A stretch of 64,000 nucleotides of DNA. Origin: Alistipes sp. Lineage in GTDB: Bacteria; Bacteroidota; Bacteroidia; Bacteroidales; Rikenellaceae. Position 1 is the first letter of the stretch. Each line of letters starts with the position of its first letter. The stretch lies in contig JAFTOU010000012.1 of the NCBI GenBank assembly GCA_017463615.1, positions 44,931 to 108,930 on the forward strand, given 5' to 3'. The notes beneath the pieces were generated by a model, which saw only the letters and a program-made list of their open reading frames with translations, ran no database searches and was not told the origin of the DNA. Positions 23,046 to 60,843 of the stretch are shown here, one piece after another. The translations under genes and the position numbers were made by a program.

Positions 23046-23074
23046 AAGGGAGGGCTTTGACCCTCCCTTTTATG
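23046..23074 (+). terminator. Terminator of Hc1-like gene
   Basis: Stem AAGGGAGGG / CCCTCCCTT with loop CTTTGA, then TTTATGTTTT. Confidence 0.85.
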
Positions 23075-53902: not shown

Positions 53903-55582
53903 TTACTCGTTCTCTGTCAGCTTGCGGTACTTAACGCGCTTTGGTGCGGTATCAAGACCCTGAGCCTTCTTCCACTCCTCGTACTCGGAGTATGAACCCT
54001 CGTAGAAGACAACATTGCCGTCGCCCTCAAACGAGAGGATATGTGTTGCAACACGGTCAAGGAACCAACGGTCGTGCGAGATTACAACAGCACAACCTGC
54101 GAAGTTCTCCAGACCCTCCTCCAATGCACGCAGGGTATTTACATCAATATCGTTGGTAGGCTCATCAAGCAGGATGACATTTCCCTCCTCCTTAAGCGCA
54201 AGGGCGAGGTGCAGTCGGTTACGCTCACCACCCGACAGAACGCCGCACTTCTTCTCCTGGTCTGCACCGGTGAAGTTGAAGCGAGCAACATAGGCACGAG
54301 CATTTACCTGACGGTTGCCCAGTGTGATAAGGTCGCTATTTTGCGAGATAACCTCATAGACGGTCTTCTCAGGGTCAATAGAGGCGTGCTGCTGGTCTAC
54401 ATAGGCGAGTTTCACAGTCTGACCTACGGTAAATGTACCGCTTGTAGGCTGCTCCAGACCCATAATCATACGGAAGAGGGTAGTCTTACCCGTTCCGTTA
54501 GGACCGATAACACCCACGATACCTGCTGGTGGAAGTTGGAAATCAAGACCCTCATAGAGCACGCGGTCACCATAAGCCTTGCTTACACCGTGAGCCTCAA
54601 TTACTACATCGCCCAAACGAGGTCCGTTAGGGATGTAAATCTCCAGCTTCTCCTCCTTCTGCTTTGTATCCTCGTTGAGCATACGGTCGTATGCCGACAG
54701 ACGAGCCTTGCTCTTAGCGCGACGACCCGCAGGTGCCATATTCACCCACTCAAGCTCGCGCTCCAGAGTCTTGCGACGCTTGCTCTCCTGCTTCTCCTCC
54801 AGAGCCATACGGCGAGTCTTCTGCTCCAGCCAGCCAGAGTAGTTACCCTTCCAAGGAATACCCTCGCCACGGTCAAGTTCAAGAATCCAACCAGCTACAT
54901 TATCAAGGAAGTAACGGTCATGGGTTACGGCAATAACGGTACCCTTATACTGCTGCAGGTGCTGCTCCAACCAGTCAATAGACTCAGCGTCAAGGTGGTT
55001 GGTAGGCTCATCCAGAAGCAGTACATCCGGCTGCTGCAACAGCAGACGACACAGAGCCACACGACGACGCTCACCACCCGACAGTACGGCTACACTCTGC
55101 TCTGGGTCTGGACAGCGAAGTGCATCCATAGCACGCTCCAGCACGCTATCAAGCTCCCAGCCGTTTACCTGGTCAATCTTCTCGTAAACCACACCCTGAC
55201 GCTCAATGAGAGCGTTCATCTCGTCGTCAGACATTGGCTCACAGAGCTTCATATTTATCTCCTCGTACTCCTTGAGCAGGGCAACGGTCTCAGCGCAACC
55301 CTCCTCCACAACCTCGCGGACGGTCTTAGAGTTATCCAGCTGAGGCTCCTGCTCCAGATAGCCTACAGAGTAGCCAGGAGAGAATACAACCTCGCCCTGG
55401 AAATTTTTGTCAATACCTGCAATAATTTTCATCAGGGTAGACTTACCCGAGCCGTTGAGACCGATGATACCGATTTTTGCACCATAGAAGAATGAAAGGT
55501 AGATGTTGTTAAGCACCTTTTTCTGATTGGTAAAGGTCTTTGAGACACCAACCATTGAGAAGATAATTTTTTCGTCTGCCAT
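53903..55582 (-). CDS. ettA: Energy-dependent translational throttle protein EttA (ABC-F)
   Basis: The 559-residue protein has two ABC ATPase domains: Walker A GLNGSGKST and GPNGTGKTT, signatures LSGGERRR and LSGGERNR, and Walker B LLLDEPTNHLD and ILLDEPTNDID, joined by the charged linker with RRMALEEKQESKRRK. There are no membrane helices. EttA binds the ribosomal E site and gates elongation according to ATP/ADP. It heads an operon with the DUF4062-TPR gene and hisS. The upstream fold-back element ends 2 bases before its start. Confidence 0.93.
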   Translation of the reverse strand: MADEKIIFSMVGVSKTFTNQKKVLNNIYLSFFYGAKIGIIGLNGSGKSTLMKIIAGIDKNFQGEVVFSPGYSVGYLEQEPQLDNSKTVREVVEEGCAETVALLKEYEEINMKLCEPMSDDEMNALIERQGVVYEKIDQVNGWELDSVLERAMDALRCPDPEQSVAVLSGGERRRVALCRLLLQQPDVLLLDEPTNHLDAESIDWLEQHLQQYKGTVIAVTHDRYFLDNVAGWILELDRGEGIPWKGNYSGWLEQKTRRMALEEKQESKRRKTLERELEWVNMAPAGRRAKSKARLSAYDRMLNEDTKQKEEKLEIYIPNGPRLGDVVIEAHGVSKAYGDRVLYEGLDFQLPPAGIVGVIGPNGTGKTTLFRMIMGLEQPTSGTFTVGQTVKLAYVDQQHASIDPEKTVYEVISQNSDLITLGNRQVNARAYVARFNFTGADQEKKCGVLSGGERNRLHLALALKEEGNVILLDEPTNDIDVNTLRALEEGLENFAGCAVVISHDRWFLDRVATHILSFEGDGNVVFYEGSYSEYEEWKKAQGLDTAPKRVKYRKLTENE

Positions 55583-55584
55583 AA

Positions 55585-55777
55585 AAGGTATGTTCTATAA
55601 ATTAGTTATTATTTTTTCATTTTTGAGTAGATTCTATTGCGGTCGCTTTTGGGACTATTTTGGTCTATTTCGCATCTTTTCGCAGTTACAATAGGCTATT
55701 GCGCCCTTAAAAGAGATGCAAAATAGCCTCAAAATATCCTCCAAAATCGCCTCGTCCTAATTTATAGAACCTACCTT
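55585..55777. repeat. Fold-back repeat element, copy 1 (193 bp), in the ettA leader
   Basis: The ends AAGGTATGTTCTATAAATTA-G (55585-55605) and its inverted partner (55757-55777) match at 20 of 21 positions. The interior also folds on itself: TATTTTG and GCATCTTTT blocks on the left recur inverted on the right, around a CAATAG-G-CTATTG centre, so the whole element can form one long imperfect hairpin. It begins 2 bases upstream of the ettA ATG, and the ettA promoter lies beyond its far end, so it is transcribed as leader. A shorter relative is at 60739 and a lone end at 58459. Confidence 0.8.
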
Positions 55778-55815
55778 AATTGTCGTTATAATACTCGGGG
55801 TACTATATATTTGGG

Positions 55816-55847
55816 CAAAGATAGTAACTTTTAATACATTTTGCAAA
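55816..55847 (-). promoter_or_regulatory. Promoter of ettA operon
   Basis: On the minus strand TTTG (55844-55847), 20 bases, TATCTTTG (55816-55823). This gives an unusually long leader of about 230 bases that contains the fold-back element. On the plus strand TATATTTG at 55806-55813 is a candidate -7 element for rubrerythrin without a well-spaced -33. Confidence 0.65.
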
Positions 55848-55886
55848 GTTTTTGCACCGTAACCACCGAATAAAAAACAAAGTACT

Positions 55887-56465
55887 ATGAAAAGCATCAA
55901 AGGCTCTACAACAGAGCAGAATCTACTCAAGGCATTTGCTGGTGAGAGTCAGGCACGCAACCGCTACTCATTCTTCGCCTCGGTGGCTAAAAAAGAGGGC
56001 TACGAACAGATTGCAGCCACATTCTTAGAGACCGCCGAGCAGGAGAAAGAGCACGCAAAGCGATTCTTCAAATTTATGGAGGGTGGACTGGCGAATATCT
56101 ACGAGGCGACCTATCCCGCAGGAAAGATAGGTACAACAACCGAAAATCTCCTTGCTGCAGCGCTGGGCGAGAAGGAGGAGTGGGATATCCTATATCCGAC
56201 ATTTGCGCAGATGGCAGACGAGGAGGGCTTTATGGAGATATCCGCCGCATTTCGCAACATCGCCACCGTGGAGGCGGAGCACGAGAGGCGATATATGCAG
56301 CTACTGAGTCGCATTACGGCGGGCGACTTCTTCCACCGCAACGAGGAGATATGGTGGCAGTGTCGCAACTGCGGGTATATCGTAAAGCTAAAAGATGCCC
56401 CGAAAATCTGTCCGACCTGCATCCATCCGCAATCATATTTTGAGCCGATGAAGACAAACTATTAA
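55887..56465 (+). CDS. Rubrerythrin
   Basis: The 192-residue protein has the ferritin-like diiron four-helix bundle (FAGESQARNRYSFFA, ETAEQEKEHAKRF, EAEHERRY) and a C-terminal rubredoxin-like iron site with two CxxC pairs (CRNCGY and CPTC). It reduces hydrogen peroxide in the cytoplasm of anaerobes. It is divergent from ettA and ends in a strong terminator. Confidence 0.96.
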   Translation: MKSIKGSTTEQNLLKAFAGESQARNRYSFFASVAKKEGYEQIAATFLETAEQEKEHAKRFFKFMEGGLANIYEATYPAGKIGTTTENLLAAALGEKEEWDILYPTFAQMADEEGFMEISAAFRNIATVEAEHERRYMQLLSRITAGDFFHRNEEIWWQCRNCGYIVKLKDAPKICPTCIHPQSYFEPMKTNY

Positions 56466-56470
56466 AGCAC

Positions 56471-56508
56471 AAAAAGCCCATCTGAGAGTCATCAGGTGGG
56501 CTTTTTTA
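56471..56508 (+). terminator. Terminator of rubrerythrin gene
   Basis: AAGCCCA / TGGGCTT stem with an inner CTGA/TCAG pair, followed by six T. Confidence 0.9.
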
Positions 56509-56562
56509 TTGGCATGTCATTCTGCTATACCCATCGCCATACAGACCATAGCGCACAGATAT

Positions 56563-56593
56563 TTTGCATTTGGAGTAAATTATACTACCTTTG
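56563..56593 (+). promoter_or_regulatory. Promoter of PagL-like gene
   Basis: TTTG (56563-56566), 19 bases, TACCTTTG (56586-56593); leader of about 30 bases. Confidence 0.75.
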
Positions 56594-56628
56594 CGCCGAT
56601 TTTTTGGGTTAGTTATCAGTAAAATTTT

Positions 56629-57909
56629 ATGGTTAATAGAAGATTCCTCACAACATTACTATGTCTACTGCTCTGCAGCGGCATTGCAGCAGCTAAAGAT
56701 GCAAACAAGTTCTACAAGAGCGGCAACGACCGATTCTCATTCAAAGTGCAGCCATTTATGGGCACATATCTTATGCCGAGCAGCAACCTCTCAGAGATCA
56801 ACCCCAATGGCCCTGCAGGCTTGAATTTAGGCGTTGAGTTTCCATCCTCGCAGCAGCGTCCGTGGCAGCAGTATCTGAACAATCCGACCGTAGGTCTGGG
56901 TATGTCGTACATTGACATGGGACACAAGACCATGGGCGAGGGTATTGCCGTATATCCATACATAATGCTCAACGGCTTCCGCTCCCAGTACTTCAACCTC
57001 AAGGTTAAGCTCGGCTCGGGGTTGGTAGCGCTCAGCCAACACTACTACAAGGCCCTTGACGAGCCTATTCCAAACAAGACATTTGCAACCACACTAAACG
57101 CCTATCTTACTGGAGGTCTGAACCTTGAGTTCCCGATAACGCGCAACATTACACTCAACGGCGAGCTGGGCTTCTTCCACATGAGCAACGGCCGTACTCG
57201 CGAGCCGAATAAGGGTGCAAATGTCCTCTACGGAGGTGTCGGCTTGGTGGCAACCATAAACCCTACCGCTGAGGATGAGCGACAGCCGATTACATTCCCC
57301 GACCTGCCATACAAGTGGAGCCTGAACATCACTGCCGCCTCGGGAGTGCACGCGGCGGATAGAACAGATGCAAACCGTTTTGCTATCTTCTCGTTCCATG
57401 TGGGTGCGATATACAACACCTGCAACTGGCACGGCATTGGTCTGGGTGCAGACCTATTCTACAACGATGCCATAGGTAACCCAATGACCAACAGAGGTAT
57501 GTATCGCATAACTAATGAGAGATGGCGTCGTATGCGTGGTGGTCTATCGCTGAATAACGAGTTCAAGTTCGGTAACTTCACAGCTATGCTTGACTGGGGT
57601 GTATACCTCTTCAACCCCGTGCGTAACCTATACGCCAACGACCATCCAATATACGGTCAGGGTCGCCGTCCTCTATTCTACAAGTCGGAGGGTACGGGTA
57701 CAGACGAGCGATTCCACTACATCCGCTTCGGTATCAAGTATCGCGTCTACGACAACATCCACCTGCAGGCGCTCGCTAAGACCCATATGCACATCTGCGA
57801 GCTGATAGAGTTCGGTATAAGCTATCAAATTCCGTTTGTTCATAAGGGTAAGCGCATAAACAACAAAAAGATTTTCCACCACCGTCGCAACTGGTGGAAG
57901 GAGTACTAA
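56629..57909 (+). CDS. PagL-like acyloxyacyl hydrolase / lipid A deacylase family outer membrane protein
   Basis: The 426-residue protein has a signal peptide (cleavage near GIAAAKD) and a beta-barrel pattern. GFFHMSNGRTREPNKGAN (about 181-198) contains the His 184 and Ser 186 and the N-x-G-x-N pattern of the PagL lipid A 3-O-deacylase site. Bacteroidetes members are longer than PagL of Pseudomonas, as here. It would remove acyl chains from lipid A at the outer membrane. It has its own promoter and terminator. Confidence 0.85.
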   Translation: MVNRRFLTTLLCLLLCSGIAAAKDANKFYKSGNDRFSFKVQPFMGTYLMPSSNLSEINPNGPAGLNLGVEFPSSQQRPWQQYLNNPTVGLGMSYIDMGHKTMGEGIAVYPYIMLNGFRSQYFNLKVKLGSGLVALSQHYYKALDEPIPNKTFATTLNAYLTGGLNLEFPITRNITLNGELGFFHMSNGRTREPNKGANVLYGGVGLVATINPTAEDERQPITFPDLPYKWSLNITAASGVHAADRTDANRFAIFSFHVGAIYNTCNWHGIGLGADLFYNDAIGNPMTNRGMYRITNERWRRMRGGLSLNNEFKFGNFTAMLDWGVYLFNPVRNLYANDHPIYGQGRRPLFYKSEGTGTDERFHYIRFGIKYRVYDNIHLQALAKTHMHICELIEFGISYQIPFVHKGKRINNKKIFHHRRNWWKEY

Positions 57910-57947
57910 AAAAAGTAGGGCTGTTTTGTAACAGTCCTACTTTTTTT
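57910..57947 (+). terminator. Bidirectional terminator after PagL-like gene
   Basis: AAAAAGTAGG-CTGTT / AACAG-CCTACTTTTT with loop TTGT and a long T run on each strand. Confidence 0.9.
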
Positions 57948-58012
57948 GAGAGCGCAGCGAGGGAAGATGTTATTGCCACGCTCTCGCCTAATAAAAAACC
58001 TATCGTAAAACT

Positions 58013-58456
58013 CTACTTGTACTGAGCAACCTTGCGTGCCTCGCGAGAGATACGGTCCTCAATACGATAAAGTTTCTCTACCTGAAGAGGCTCAATAACC
58101 TCTGCAAAAATCCACAGATACTTCTGCTTCACAGACGATGTGTTGATGGTGTTAGAGAGGCGGGTAGCTGCAACCTTGAGTGCATTCTCGTTTGTCAGCT
58201 CCTCCTTGCGCACCTTAGCACCTTTGTTGTCTGCGACCTTGGCAATAGTCTTGCGATACTCGCGGTATACCGGTTCAAAGGCAACATACTGTACATCAGT
58301 GAGTTTCAGTTCATCCTTAAGCATCTGCAGACGGGTGTTCATCAACTCCTCGTGCTTCGCTTTATTAACCTCCTTAGGGTTCTTCGCCTGCGCCAGCGCA
58401 TCCTGCGCAAATAGTGCCATCACGGCAAAAATTGCTACATAAATAATCTTTTTCAT
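58013..58456 (-). CDS. Spy/CpxP-like periplasmic protein
   Basis: The 147-residue product has a signal peptide (cleavage near ALAQA) and is helical, with the motif ELKLTDVQY resembling LTxxQ of Spy/CpxP chaperones. Such small proteins buffer envelope stress by binding unfolded proteins. It follows an ECF sigma factor and a small membrane protein, suggesting an envelope stress regulon. A lone copy of the fold-back element end lies 2 bases upstream of its start. Confidence 0.7.
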   Translation of the reverse strand: MKKIIYVAIFAVMALFAQDALAQAKNPKEVNKAKHEELMNTRLQMLKDELKLTDVQYVAFEPVYREYRKTIAKVADNKGAKVRKEELTNENALKVAATRLSNTINTSSVKQKYLWIFAEVIEPLQVEKLYRIEDRISREARKVAQYK

Positions 58457-58458
58457 AA

Positions 58459-58479
58459 AAGGTATGTTCTATAAATTAG
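58459..58479. repeat. Lone terminal repeat of the fold-back element family
   Basis: The same end as copy 1 (GGTATGTTCTATAAATTAG) lies 2 bases before the Spy-like gene start. No inverted partner follows; the next gene stops at 58487. Confidence 0.75.
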
Positions 58480-58486
58480 TAATTAG

Positions 58487-58804
58487 TTATAACAAAGTCA
58501 TATCTTCTGCATACTCAACCATATCGGCAGAGAGTTCATAGAGCGCATCCTCTGGCGCCTCTGCCACAAGCTCCATAAACTGCTCGTAGTATGTAGGCTC
58601 CGTAAGCTCCATATATCCCAGCACCACAAAGCAGAGCACCACCGCCACAGCAAACGAGAGCGACCAACGCAACACTCGCGCACCTTTATTACTCTTTGCC
58701 TGCTGCCCCCTAACCGCTGCGCAGGCACGAATCTTCATTCGTTCCATAGCGCCATCCTCAAGGCGGTAGGGCATACTCTTCATTCTATCCATATCGTTAC
58801 TCAT
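58487..58804 (-). CDS. Small single-helix membrane protein (possible anti-sigma factor)
   Basis: The 105-residue protein has a basic, Met-rich N-terminal half (about 1-43), one membrane helix (about 46-65) and an acidic C-terminal tail. It overlaps the ECF sigma gene by 8 bases. The topology of a cytoplasmic N terminus and a short external tail fits an anti-sigma factor or modulator, but there is no recognisable zinc anti-sigma motif. Confidence 0.6.
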   Translation of the reverse strand: MSNDMDRMKSMPYRLEDGAMERMKIRACAAVRGQQAKSNKGARVLRWSLSFAVAVVLCFVVLGYMELTEPTYYEQFMELVAEAPEDALYELSADMVEYAEDMTLL

Positions 58805-59357
58805 AATCTAACTGGCTTACTAACTGTTTAATACGCTTGGCTGCGTAGTGGTAATTTGTCTTTAGTGTTGCAACACTCTGACCCGTAATCTGCGAAATCT
58901 CCTCAAACGACAACTCGTCGTAGTATCGCATATTAAAGACCAGCTTCTGCTTCATCGGCAGTGCCAATATCGCCCGCTGGAGCTTTATGGCAATCTGGTC
59001 GGCACTCGGGTCAATCTCCGCCTCAAAATCGGAGACAAGGGTGTTTGACAGCGAGTCTAACGAGGCAAAAATATGTTTTCTTCTACGCTTGAGAGCCTTG
59101 AGAGCCACCGTGGTTGCAATCTTATAGAGCCACGCCACCAACGAACTCTCCGTCTCGCCCCTGAAACCACCCACTGCCGAGTATGCCGTAACGAAGGTAT
59201 CCTGCAGGGCATCCTCCGCCTCCTCGTGTTGCACGACAATACGGCGTATATGCCAGTAGAGTCGCTCGCTGTATCGCTCAATTACAACCTCAAACGCCCT
59301 AACCGCATACTGCTCCGACTTCAGAGTGTTGATAATTTGAGTTATATCAGCATTCAT
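58797..59357 (-). CDS. ECF-type RNA polymerase sigma factor
   Basis: The 186-residue protein has region 2 (FEVVIERYSERLYWHIRRIV ... EEAEDALQDTFVTAYSAV) and region 4 (MRYYDELSFEEISQITGQSVATLKTNYHYAAKRI). It directs RNA polymerase to a stress-type regulon, probably including its own operon with the membrane protein and the Spy-like protein. The ATG at 59357 is chosen over a TTG at 59366. A 47-base gap separates it from capA. Confidence 0.92.
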   Translation of the reverse strand: MNADITQIINTLKSEQYAVRAFEVVIERYSERLYWHIRRIVVQHEEAEDALQDTFVTAYSAVGGFRGETESSLVAWLYKIATTVALKALKRRRKHIFASLDSLSNTLVSDFEAEIDPSADQIAIKLQRAILALPMKQKLVFNMRYYDELSFEEISQITGQSVATLKTNYHYAAKRIKQLVSQLDYE

Positions 59358-59404
59358 AACTTGCAAGCGATTTCACCTTATTAGATACGCAATGTGGGCA
59401 AAGG

Positions 59405-60457
59405 TTAAAAAATCTTCGCACAATTTGTCATAAAATTTTTGTAAGCCGCACGCTCGTCGGCTCTCAGAGAGATAGTATCGCCAACAGATTTCGGCAATAC
59501 CGTATAGTCGCAGTGGCGCACCCAGACAGGCACAATATCCACCCAGAATTGGCAATCATCACCATCCTTAACAACCTCCAACTGGGCTATAATGCCGCCA
59601 TCGCTGCCCGCCGTGCGCTGGTTGGAGATAAAGTTGCCGAGGGAGTAGAGCGTAACAGCACGCTTCGTCACCTCAGCCCCCTGAACGACATGGGGATGCG
59701 AGCCGATAACAACCTGACAGCCATCACGATGCAACACATCCGCCACCGTGCGTTGCTCTCTACTTGTGCGCATTGAATACTCCGCACCCCAGTGCAGAAA
59801 GGCGATGGTGCAGTCCGCATCCTTACATCGCGCAATATCCGCCTTCATCTGCAGTGTATCAAGCAGGTTTACCAAAGTCCCCTTCGGGGTAGGAATACCG
59901 TTTGTGCCGTAGGTGTAGGAGAGCAGAGCAAGGCGAATGCCATTGCGGTTGATTATCAACGGGTTGCGGTTGGTATAGTCCGTACTATCACGAAAAGTTC
60001 CAGTGCTCTGTATGCCGTTGCGGGCAAGTATCTCTATCGTAGAGGCAACGCCCTTAGCGCCTGCATCTAAGGCGTGATTGTTTGCCGTAACAGCCACATC
60101 TACGCCCGCATCGGCGAGAGCCTCAGCAAGCTCGGCAGGGGCGCGAAAAGCAGGGTAGCCGCTATATGGCGCGGTGTCGGATAGGGTAGTCTCAAGATTT
60201 ACAATAGCGAGGTCGGCAGCCTCAAAAATAGGCTTTATATACCTAAAGCAAGGCTTGAAGTCGTAACCACTACCTCGCTTTGCTTTAGATACTTGCGGCG
60301 AGTGCGCCATAACATCGCCCGCAAAGATAATCTTCAGGCGCTGCAGTGGCTCTGCTTGTCCGAATTGGGGCGGCTCAGGCTCAATAAAAGCGACCACGTA
60401 CCACAGCGACAGCAGTGATGCACAGACCAAATAGAGTATCGGACAAAGACTTCTCAA
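59405..60457 (-). CDS. CapA/PgsA-family protein
   Basis: The 350-residue protein has an N-terminal membrane anchor (about 7-25) and a calcineurin-like CapA fold with FAGDVMAHSPQ, NLETTLS, TANNHALDAG and LHWGAEYS plus GSHPHVVQG. Family members act in poly-gamma-glutamate synthesis in some bacteria, but the Bacteroidetes proteins are widely distributed and uncharacterised. It overlaps the DUF4491 gene by 4 bases. Confidence 0.88.
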   Translation of the reverse strand: MRSLCPILYLVCASLLSLWYVVAFIEPEPPQFGQAEPLQRLKIIFAGDVMAHSPQVSKAKRGSGYDFKPCFRYIKPIFEAADLAIVNLETTLSDTAPYSGYPAFRAPAELAEALADAGVDVAVTANNHALDAGAKGVASTIEILARNGIQSTGTFRDSTDYTNRNPLIINRNGIRLALLSYTYGTNGIPTPKGTLVNLLDTLQMKADIARCKDADCTIAFLHWGAEYSMRTSREQRTVADVLHRDGCQVVIGSHPHVVQGAEVTKRAVTLYSLGNFISNQRTAGSDGGIIAQLEVVKDGDDCQFWVDIVPVWVRHCDYTVLPKSVGDTISLRADERAAYKNFMTNCAKIF

Positions 60458-60738
60458 TCTCTCTTCTCTCGTTTAGGAAACCAACCCCTTCTCACTCGCT
60501 CGCGCTGCTCAAATAGCTCGCCAATGCTCCAGAACGACGACGCGCCCCAAACAGCCAGCAGGGTAGACCACAGCACATCTGCTATCATCAACGACCCTAC
60601 AACCGCAGCTAAACCCATCAGCGCAAACACCCACCAGCACTTAACGCCAAAGTAGTACTCGCTCTTGATAACAATGGGATGAAACAACCCGATAATCAAA
60701 AACGTCGCAACACCTATAATCAAACCTGTAAAGTACAT
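60454..60738 (-). CDS. DUF4491 family membrane protein
   Basis: The 94-residue protein starts MYFTGLIIGVATFLIIGLFHP, with three predicted membrane helices and a conserved WSIGELFEQRERVRRGWFP tail, matching DUF4491. Function unknown. A fold-back element (copy 2) abuts its start codon. Confidence 0.88.
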   Translation of the reverse strand: MYFTGLIIGVATFLIIGLFHPIVIKSEYYFGVKCWWVFALMGLAAVVGSLMIADVLWSTLLAVWGASSFWSIGELFEQRERVRRGWFPKREKRD

Positions 60739-60843
60739 AAGGAATGTTCTATAAATTAGTAAATTCGTTATCGTTTTGAGTAGATTCTATCGCGGGCACT
60801 TTGCGGCTTAAATTGCCTCGCCCTAATTTATAGAACCTCCCTT
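60739..60843. repeat. Fold-back repeat element, copy 2 (105 bp), in the DUF4491 leader
   Basis: Ends GGAATGTTCTATAAATTAG (from 60739) and CTAATTTATAGAACCTCCC (to 60843) are inverted repeats with two mismatches. The interior shares GAGTAGATTCTAT and TTGCCTCG-CCTAA blocks with copy 1 but lacks its central hairpin. It directly touches the DUF4491 start codon. Confidence 0.78.

Follow-up and report, generated by a model that had tools for sequence, protein, structure and literature searches.

A miniature inverted-repeat element with a covarying RNA fold before start codons of an Alistipes genome, a putative mobile mRNA leader

The closest described systems are small mobile elements of other bacteria. 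The Correia elements (NEMIS) of Neisseria are miniature inverted-repeat transposable elements (MITEs) about 107-155 bp long; they carry 24-bp inverted repeats and give transcripts that fold into long hairpins, and the passages on them in two papers report cutting by RNase III at the repeats (PMC2229807, PMC10969869). In passages of the first of these papers, the ERIC elements of enterobacteria appear as small mobile intergenic elements that are co-transcribed and have an orientation-dependent effect on mRNA (PMC2229807). For the Bacteroidales, the order of the genome studied here, a MITE of Porphyromonas gingivalis has been described (PMC4596501). Here we analyse a stretch of 64,000 nucleotides (the window) of an Alistipes sp. 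genome (assembly GCA_017463615.1, contig JAFTOU010000012.1), in which ettA, a DUF4491 gene and a gene for a 147-aa protein each have one of three related sites, all on the minus strand, just ahead of the start codon. In our reading, to which we give a probability of about 0.6, the sites derive from one non-autonomous, MITE-like element; its interior forms a directional structured RNA, and it serves as a mobile mRNA leader. The earlier note on this DNA had proposed either a MITE-like element selected as a mobile 5' leader or a structured RNA regulator, and its reading is supported in its main lines, as a MITE-like element that bears an RNA fold and is retained as a leader.

Copies of the element and their position relative to start codons

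The element is about 190 bp long, has terminal inverted repeats of about 19 bp at both ends in all 21 aligned full copies of this genome, and holds no called gene in any of these. In the window, the end sequence TGTTCTATAAATTAG has five matches at one mismatch or fewer, all at the three sites where the earlier note had placed a shared end, and an additional one with two mismatches at position 23073; dinucleotide shuffles of the window gave a mean of only 0.08 matches at up to two mismatches. The recurrence also extended to the whole assembly (2.38 Mb in 67 contigs, 93% complete, labelled G000), as expected if it is not due to chance: the 13-base end TTCTATAAATTAG was found 51 times exactly and 66 times at up to one mismatch, versus 2 for the reversed pattern, and the full element used as a BLAST query gave 41 matches. 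Chance similarity of the element ends is ruled out by the shuffle and reversed-pattern counts.

A covariance model built from 51 copies returned 64 rows at E<=1 from this genome, the first 34 of which (E<=1e-4) are distinct sense matches. Two of them are cut by contig ends. Of the remaining 32, 25 have their right end 2-12 nt ahead of a start codon that opens a frame of at least 50 codons, so that placement does heed start codons, as the earlier note had held; two others lie at 17 and 27 nt from a start and five have no start nearby, one of these (L439) having just 107 nt of right flank. The left end is within 12 nt of a start codon in a single case among the 30 matches with a readable left flank. 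Besides these matches, we counted by reading eight relics that retain the right end only, seven of them 0-10 nt before an ATG, and one clear left-end-only relic (L063). The genes downstream include, above NCBIfam cut-offs, recA, alaS, meaB, folE, dnaG and a gyrase/topoisomerase A gene (gyrA/parC-like), and below the cut-off an rpoD-like gene and typA, the typA query being truncated by the end of the locus; two further downstream proteins had no NCBIfam family at E<=1e-60.

This bias was compared over 87 full copies in three classes, namely this genome (21), other low-copy genomes (39) and an amplified clade (27, a 27-row clade of the tree), many of the loci having been collected by the left-end pattern, which does not select for starts. 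Automatic gene calls missed four starts that were plain by eye, and this count used a simpler rule: the end had to lie no more than 12 nt from an ATG that opens 50 codons or more. By this rule the right end adjoined an ATG in 17/21, 22/39 and 2/27 copies, respectively, and the left end in 1/21, 1/39 and 0/27; within 25 nt of an ATG, the amplified clade had five right ends and eight left ends. Since this recently amplified clade shows neither a short-distance nor an orientation bias, insertion aimed at start codons is ruled out and it is retention that is biased. The selected mobile 5' leader of the earlier note stands as far as biased retention and a covarying fold are concerned, not in the idea that insertion itself seeks starts.

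Some copies of this genome depart from the common type. L441 and L442 carry another end repeat (AAGCTGTTTG / AAACTGTTTA) with the same core, L442 lying 10 nt before an ATG. Four contig ends of G000 (C3 end, C15 end, C21 start and C44 end) fall inside copies of one near-identical subfamily, and these repeats therefore break the assembly.

Mobility and distribution

Copies align from GG to CC and their flanks are unrelated. The MITE-like nature put forward in the earlier note was supported by target duplications in other genomes, where 17 of 40 full copies have identical 4-bp flanks (mean of shuffles 5.3, none of 1000 as high) with a flank mismatch of 0.22 per site versus 0.43 when shuffled, and by empty sites. 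Targets, among them TTAA and TATA, are 4-bp A+T-rich sequences and often palindromes. A border placed one base further out was rejected: its outermost pair mimicked covariation, and the inward shift revealed the 4-bp duplication.

At one gene, which we take by eye to be homoserine dehydrogenase-like, the element is missing from all three relatives. Before alaS, it occupies the same place in G027 and G000, two of the 30 regions shown, and is missing from the other 28, including G005 and G028; the two insertions do not group in the tree and may reflect independent insertion or gene conversion. Before the gyrA/parC-like gene, G000 has a full copy, G028 a clear right-end relic and G027 and G005 degraded relics, and no copy was seen by eye in the other 26 of 29 upstream regions. 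These relics speak for persistence at this site. As to an autonomous parent, no two ends spaced by more than 250 bp formed a convincing pair in the loci read among the listed matches, from draft metagenome-assembled genomes (MAGs), a spacing of 3772 bp at L208 being left out, and four translated loci of G318 encoded no transposase. We name no parent element because no transposase with matching ends was found in the loci read.

DNA matches were obtained in 11 of 61 genomes and end-pattern matches in 20 of 61 genomes of the genus, this one included in both counts. Among the matches listed, most of the named sources are Alistipes and Rikenellaceae MAGs from the ruminant hindgut; Prevotella and Bacteroidaceae account for a few. 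One genome, G024, shows a burst, with at least 42 matches from the 40 that were scored among 134 candidates, many of them 98-99% identical, and with 99 plus 75 end matches at up to two mismatches. At four of its loci (L093, L106, L107 and L114), right ends are tandemly repeated beyond the right end in a unit of about 27 bp ending in AACATCCC, sometimes reaching the ATG. A 16-base match in 29 viral contigs was set aside as likely due to chance by rough expectation.

At E<=1e-3, the covariance model had matches in 11 of the 294 other Bacteroidales genomes searched; two genomes from another genus of the same family had none. The relatives matched have different end repeats and a similar core by eye (GAGCAGATTT, GCAATGCGGGCATTGTGACCGA, AAGATGCC and variants), and they show no evident start-codon bias. 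Near-identical, young copies of related elements are present in G295 (L446, L455, L461, L467) and G318 (L447, L456, L462, L468), which belong to other families of the order; the four of G318 have by eye a 3-bp TWA duplication. Two loci of Prevotella MAGs (L175 and L188) contain relatives of about 260 bp in which both ends are of the left type and the interior has an additional segment. Rfam returned only tmRNA and a tRNA for the window at gathering scores and no match for nine element loci at E<=1, and a search of the open-licence literature found no description of this element.

RNA fold, proposed mechanism and rival explanations

The earlier note had made covariation in the stems a point to check, and it proved strong in the alignment of 51 copies. 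Over 55 counted pairs, 97.5% of cells were paired and 28 pairs had changed on both sides, for a covariation score of 0.290 versus 0.119 when shuffled and 0.031-0.074 with slid partners, although the structure was derived from the same sequences, which favours it. The 21 copies of this genome showed both-side changes in 28 of 64 predicted pairs. RNAalifold gave -43.1 for the sense strand versus -29.9 for the antisense strand, and the 50 pairs found in both directions contained 47 G-U versus 18 A-C cells in sense lettering. The core is separated from the right repeat by an A-rich unpaired linker. These patterns show compensatory change that maintains the fold; its function in the leader we infer.

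In 12 of 21 copies, the 150 bp upstream of the left end contain the motif TAnnTTTG, which we take to be the Bacteroides/Bacteroidota promoter motif; mononucleotide shuffles gave a mean of 1.4 and a maximum of 5. This was the only motif searched and was found neither inside the 21 elements nor in their last 40 nt plus 12 nt beyond. Several other copies occupy short gaps between co-directional genes. The element is therefore probably part of a leader or of an intercistronic segment, in sense.

According to one study, Bacteroidota do not use Shine-Dalgarno pairing and are sensitive to structure at the start codon; in Prevotella bryantii, start-region structures of -5.2 and -11.1 kcal/mol left 0.12 and 0.007 of the protein, and with a -9 kcal/mol hairpin located at -21 the value was 1.34 (PMC3155529). 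Because of this sensitivity, a stable hairpin at starts is a paradox, and it raises the question of how these mRNAs get opened. The helix closed by the two element ends is predicted to contribute about -20 kcal/mol, and the predicted unpaired fraction of the start region over 17 copies was 0.29 with the intact element, 0.48 with its last 55 nt only and 0.49 without it. This helix must be opened or cut, since the core genes behind the copies would otherwise be nearly silent.

We propose that transcription would come from the gene's own upstream promoter, or run within an operon, and carry the element into the mRNA leader or an intercistronic segment. Retained copies would be those whose right strand and A-rich linker can act as a translation-initiation region. 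With the closing helix intact, translation would be shut off. Most likely the helix is either cleaved by a double-strand RNase, for which RNase III is our preferred candidate, or opened by a bound factor, and either route would leave an open leader of about 55 nt before the AUG. The element would then act as a mobile post-transcriptional module on core genes. A bolder and frankly tentative extension is that a transposable element has built a regulon, its fixed-register leader placing about two dozen genes (among them recA, alaS, dnaG, ettA, typA, folE and the rpoD-like and gyrA/parC-like genes) under a shared translational or RNA-processing switch, with a common RNA core and different end repeats across the Bacteroidales.

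Several points weigh against the leader reading. An element inverted in place has a predicted openness of 0.30 versus 0.29 for the intact one, so that the direction of the copies is left unexplained by the intact fold, and an explanation of orientation by its openness is not supported. Identical 4-bp flanks occur in just 3 of the 21 copies of this genome, which is not significant (shuffles 1.4). Mismatches here reach 0.55 per site in the 4-bp flanks versus 0.019 and 0.031 in the 20-base end repeats, which speaks for constraint on the repeats, but the copies were picked with limited end mismatches, which caps the latter rates. The Fisher p-values, for right ends against the amplified clade (1.9e-7 for this genome, 5.7e-5 for the other low-copy genomes) and for right against left ends (7e-7, 1e-7 and, in the amplified clade, 0.53), are too small, as the copies are related and some represent one locus in two genomes. 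The opposite-strand control for TAnnTTTG was 6/21.

The absence of bias in the amplified clade would also be expected if the copies had no leader role and merely survived. The element would land in A+T-rich 4-mers, which are common before starts here, and copies elsewhere would be deleted, whereas those at essential starts could not be deleted cleanly and inverted ones would be harmful and removed. The right-end relics fit a deletion forced to spare the ATG, but by itself such survival leaves unexplained both the sense-strand covariation and the far slower change of the end repeats than of the 4-bp flanks in this genome, and we regard it as rather unlikely. The covariation could instead reflect a single DNA strand folding during transposition and not an RNA function, the start-codon bias being a separate matter of tolerance. 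The presence of the fold in all classes, including young copies away from starts, and in the order-wide relatives without evident start bias agrees with this; the better-folded strand is nevertheless the sense strand, that of the downstream mRNA, and although G-T pairs in DNA could account for part of this, we consider DNA folding improbable.

Direction, distance and right-end-only relics would all be accounted for if the right end were an outward promoter, with transcription of the gene starting near the ATG and gene-pointing copies being kept. In Correia elements, the ends can give rise to promoters (PMC2649163). The distribution of TAnnTTTG, the sole motif searched, upstream of the elements and not within them speaks against such a promoter, which we rate as the least probable of these alternatives. 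We retain the reading of the element as a mobile leader with a structured RNA interior.

The window sites and comparison with known systems

The features of the three sites are given in Table 1, the element borders being fixed by the inverted repeats (GG...CC). The spacers measure 4 nt (ettA), 2 nt (DUF4491) and 4 nt (147-aa gene), in place of the 0-2 bases first reported. The names given to ettA and DUF4491 were upheld by NCBIfam and Pfam, respectively, while "Spy-like" for the 147-aa protein corresponds only to a sub-threshold LTXXQ match (19.3 bits, cut-off 24.3). The ettA copy has no intact 4-bp duplication, because its flanks differ (TTTT versus TTAA at 55776-55779).

Table 1. Element copies in the window, their parts and the genes behind them
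Feature	Position	Strand	Basis
Full element before ettA (189 bp)	55587..55775	-	Covariance-model match G000:C35:100517-100705, 194.8 bits; alignment and fold
Full element, left repeat strand	55757-55775	-	Alignment and fold
Full element, core hairpin	about 55639-55756	-	Alignment and fold
Full element, A-rich unpaired linker	about 55606-55638	-	Alignment and fold
Full element, right repeat strand	55587-55605	-	Alignment and fold
4-nt spacer from right end to ettA ATG (TTTT on minus strand)	55583..55586	-	Sequence
ettA, gene behind full element	53903..55582	-	NCBIfam TIGR03719, 915 bits, cut-off 806.75
TATCTTTG, TAnnTTTG match 40 nt upstream of ettA element	55816..55823	-	Motif count over 21 copies
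Right-end-only relic	58461..58479	-	Exact match to right end
147-aa gene, ATG 4 nt beyond right-end relic	58013-58456	-	Sub-threshold LTXXQ (Pfam) match only
Internally shortened element, both ends kept	60741..60841	-	Covariance-model match G000:C35:105671-105771, 86.4 bits
DUF4491 gene, ATG 2 nt beyond shortened element	60454..60738	-	PF14898, 145.2 bits

A rubrerythrin gene (NF045767; window 55887-56465) is divergent from ettA, with the full element in between. A gene for an extracytoplasmic function (ECF) sigma factor (window 58797-59366) is followed by a small gene (58487-58804) that ends beside the right-end relic and had no NCBIfam match.

The A+T-rich duplications are short, 4 bp here and 3 bp (TWA) in G318, and they resemble those of IS5-type insertion sequences, as do the ends, which begin with GG or GA; we assign no parent among these, no transposase with matching ends having been found in the loci read. 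The Correia/NEMIS elements differ from the present element in sequence, phylum and target, and the passages on them do not report a fixed orientation and register at start codons; by analogy with them, cutting by RNase III would be the preferred route for opening the present hairpin. ERIC elements, in the passages cited, act mainly on the upstream transcript via an RNase E site, and no start-codon register is mentioned there (PMC2229807). The MITE of P. gingivalis differs in that it contains a minisatellite (PMC4596501).

The present system contributes a structured RNA family that Rfam lacks and would offer a test of whether post-transcriptional control modules can be spread by transposons. 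Retention in one orientation, a few nucleotides ahead of the start codons of many core genes and combined with a covarying fold, is not known to us from any other MITE. MITEs that act on mRNA are a known kind; the element would be one of them, set apart by its register, its orientation and its conserved RNA core.

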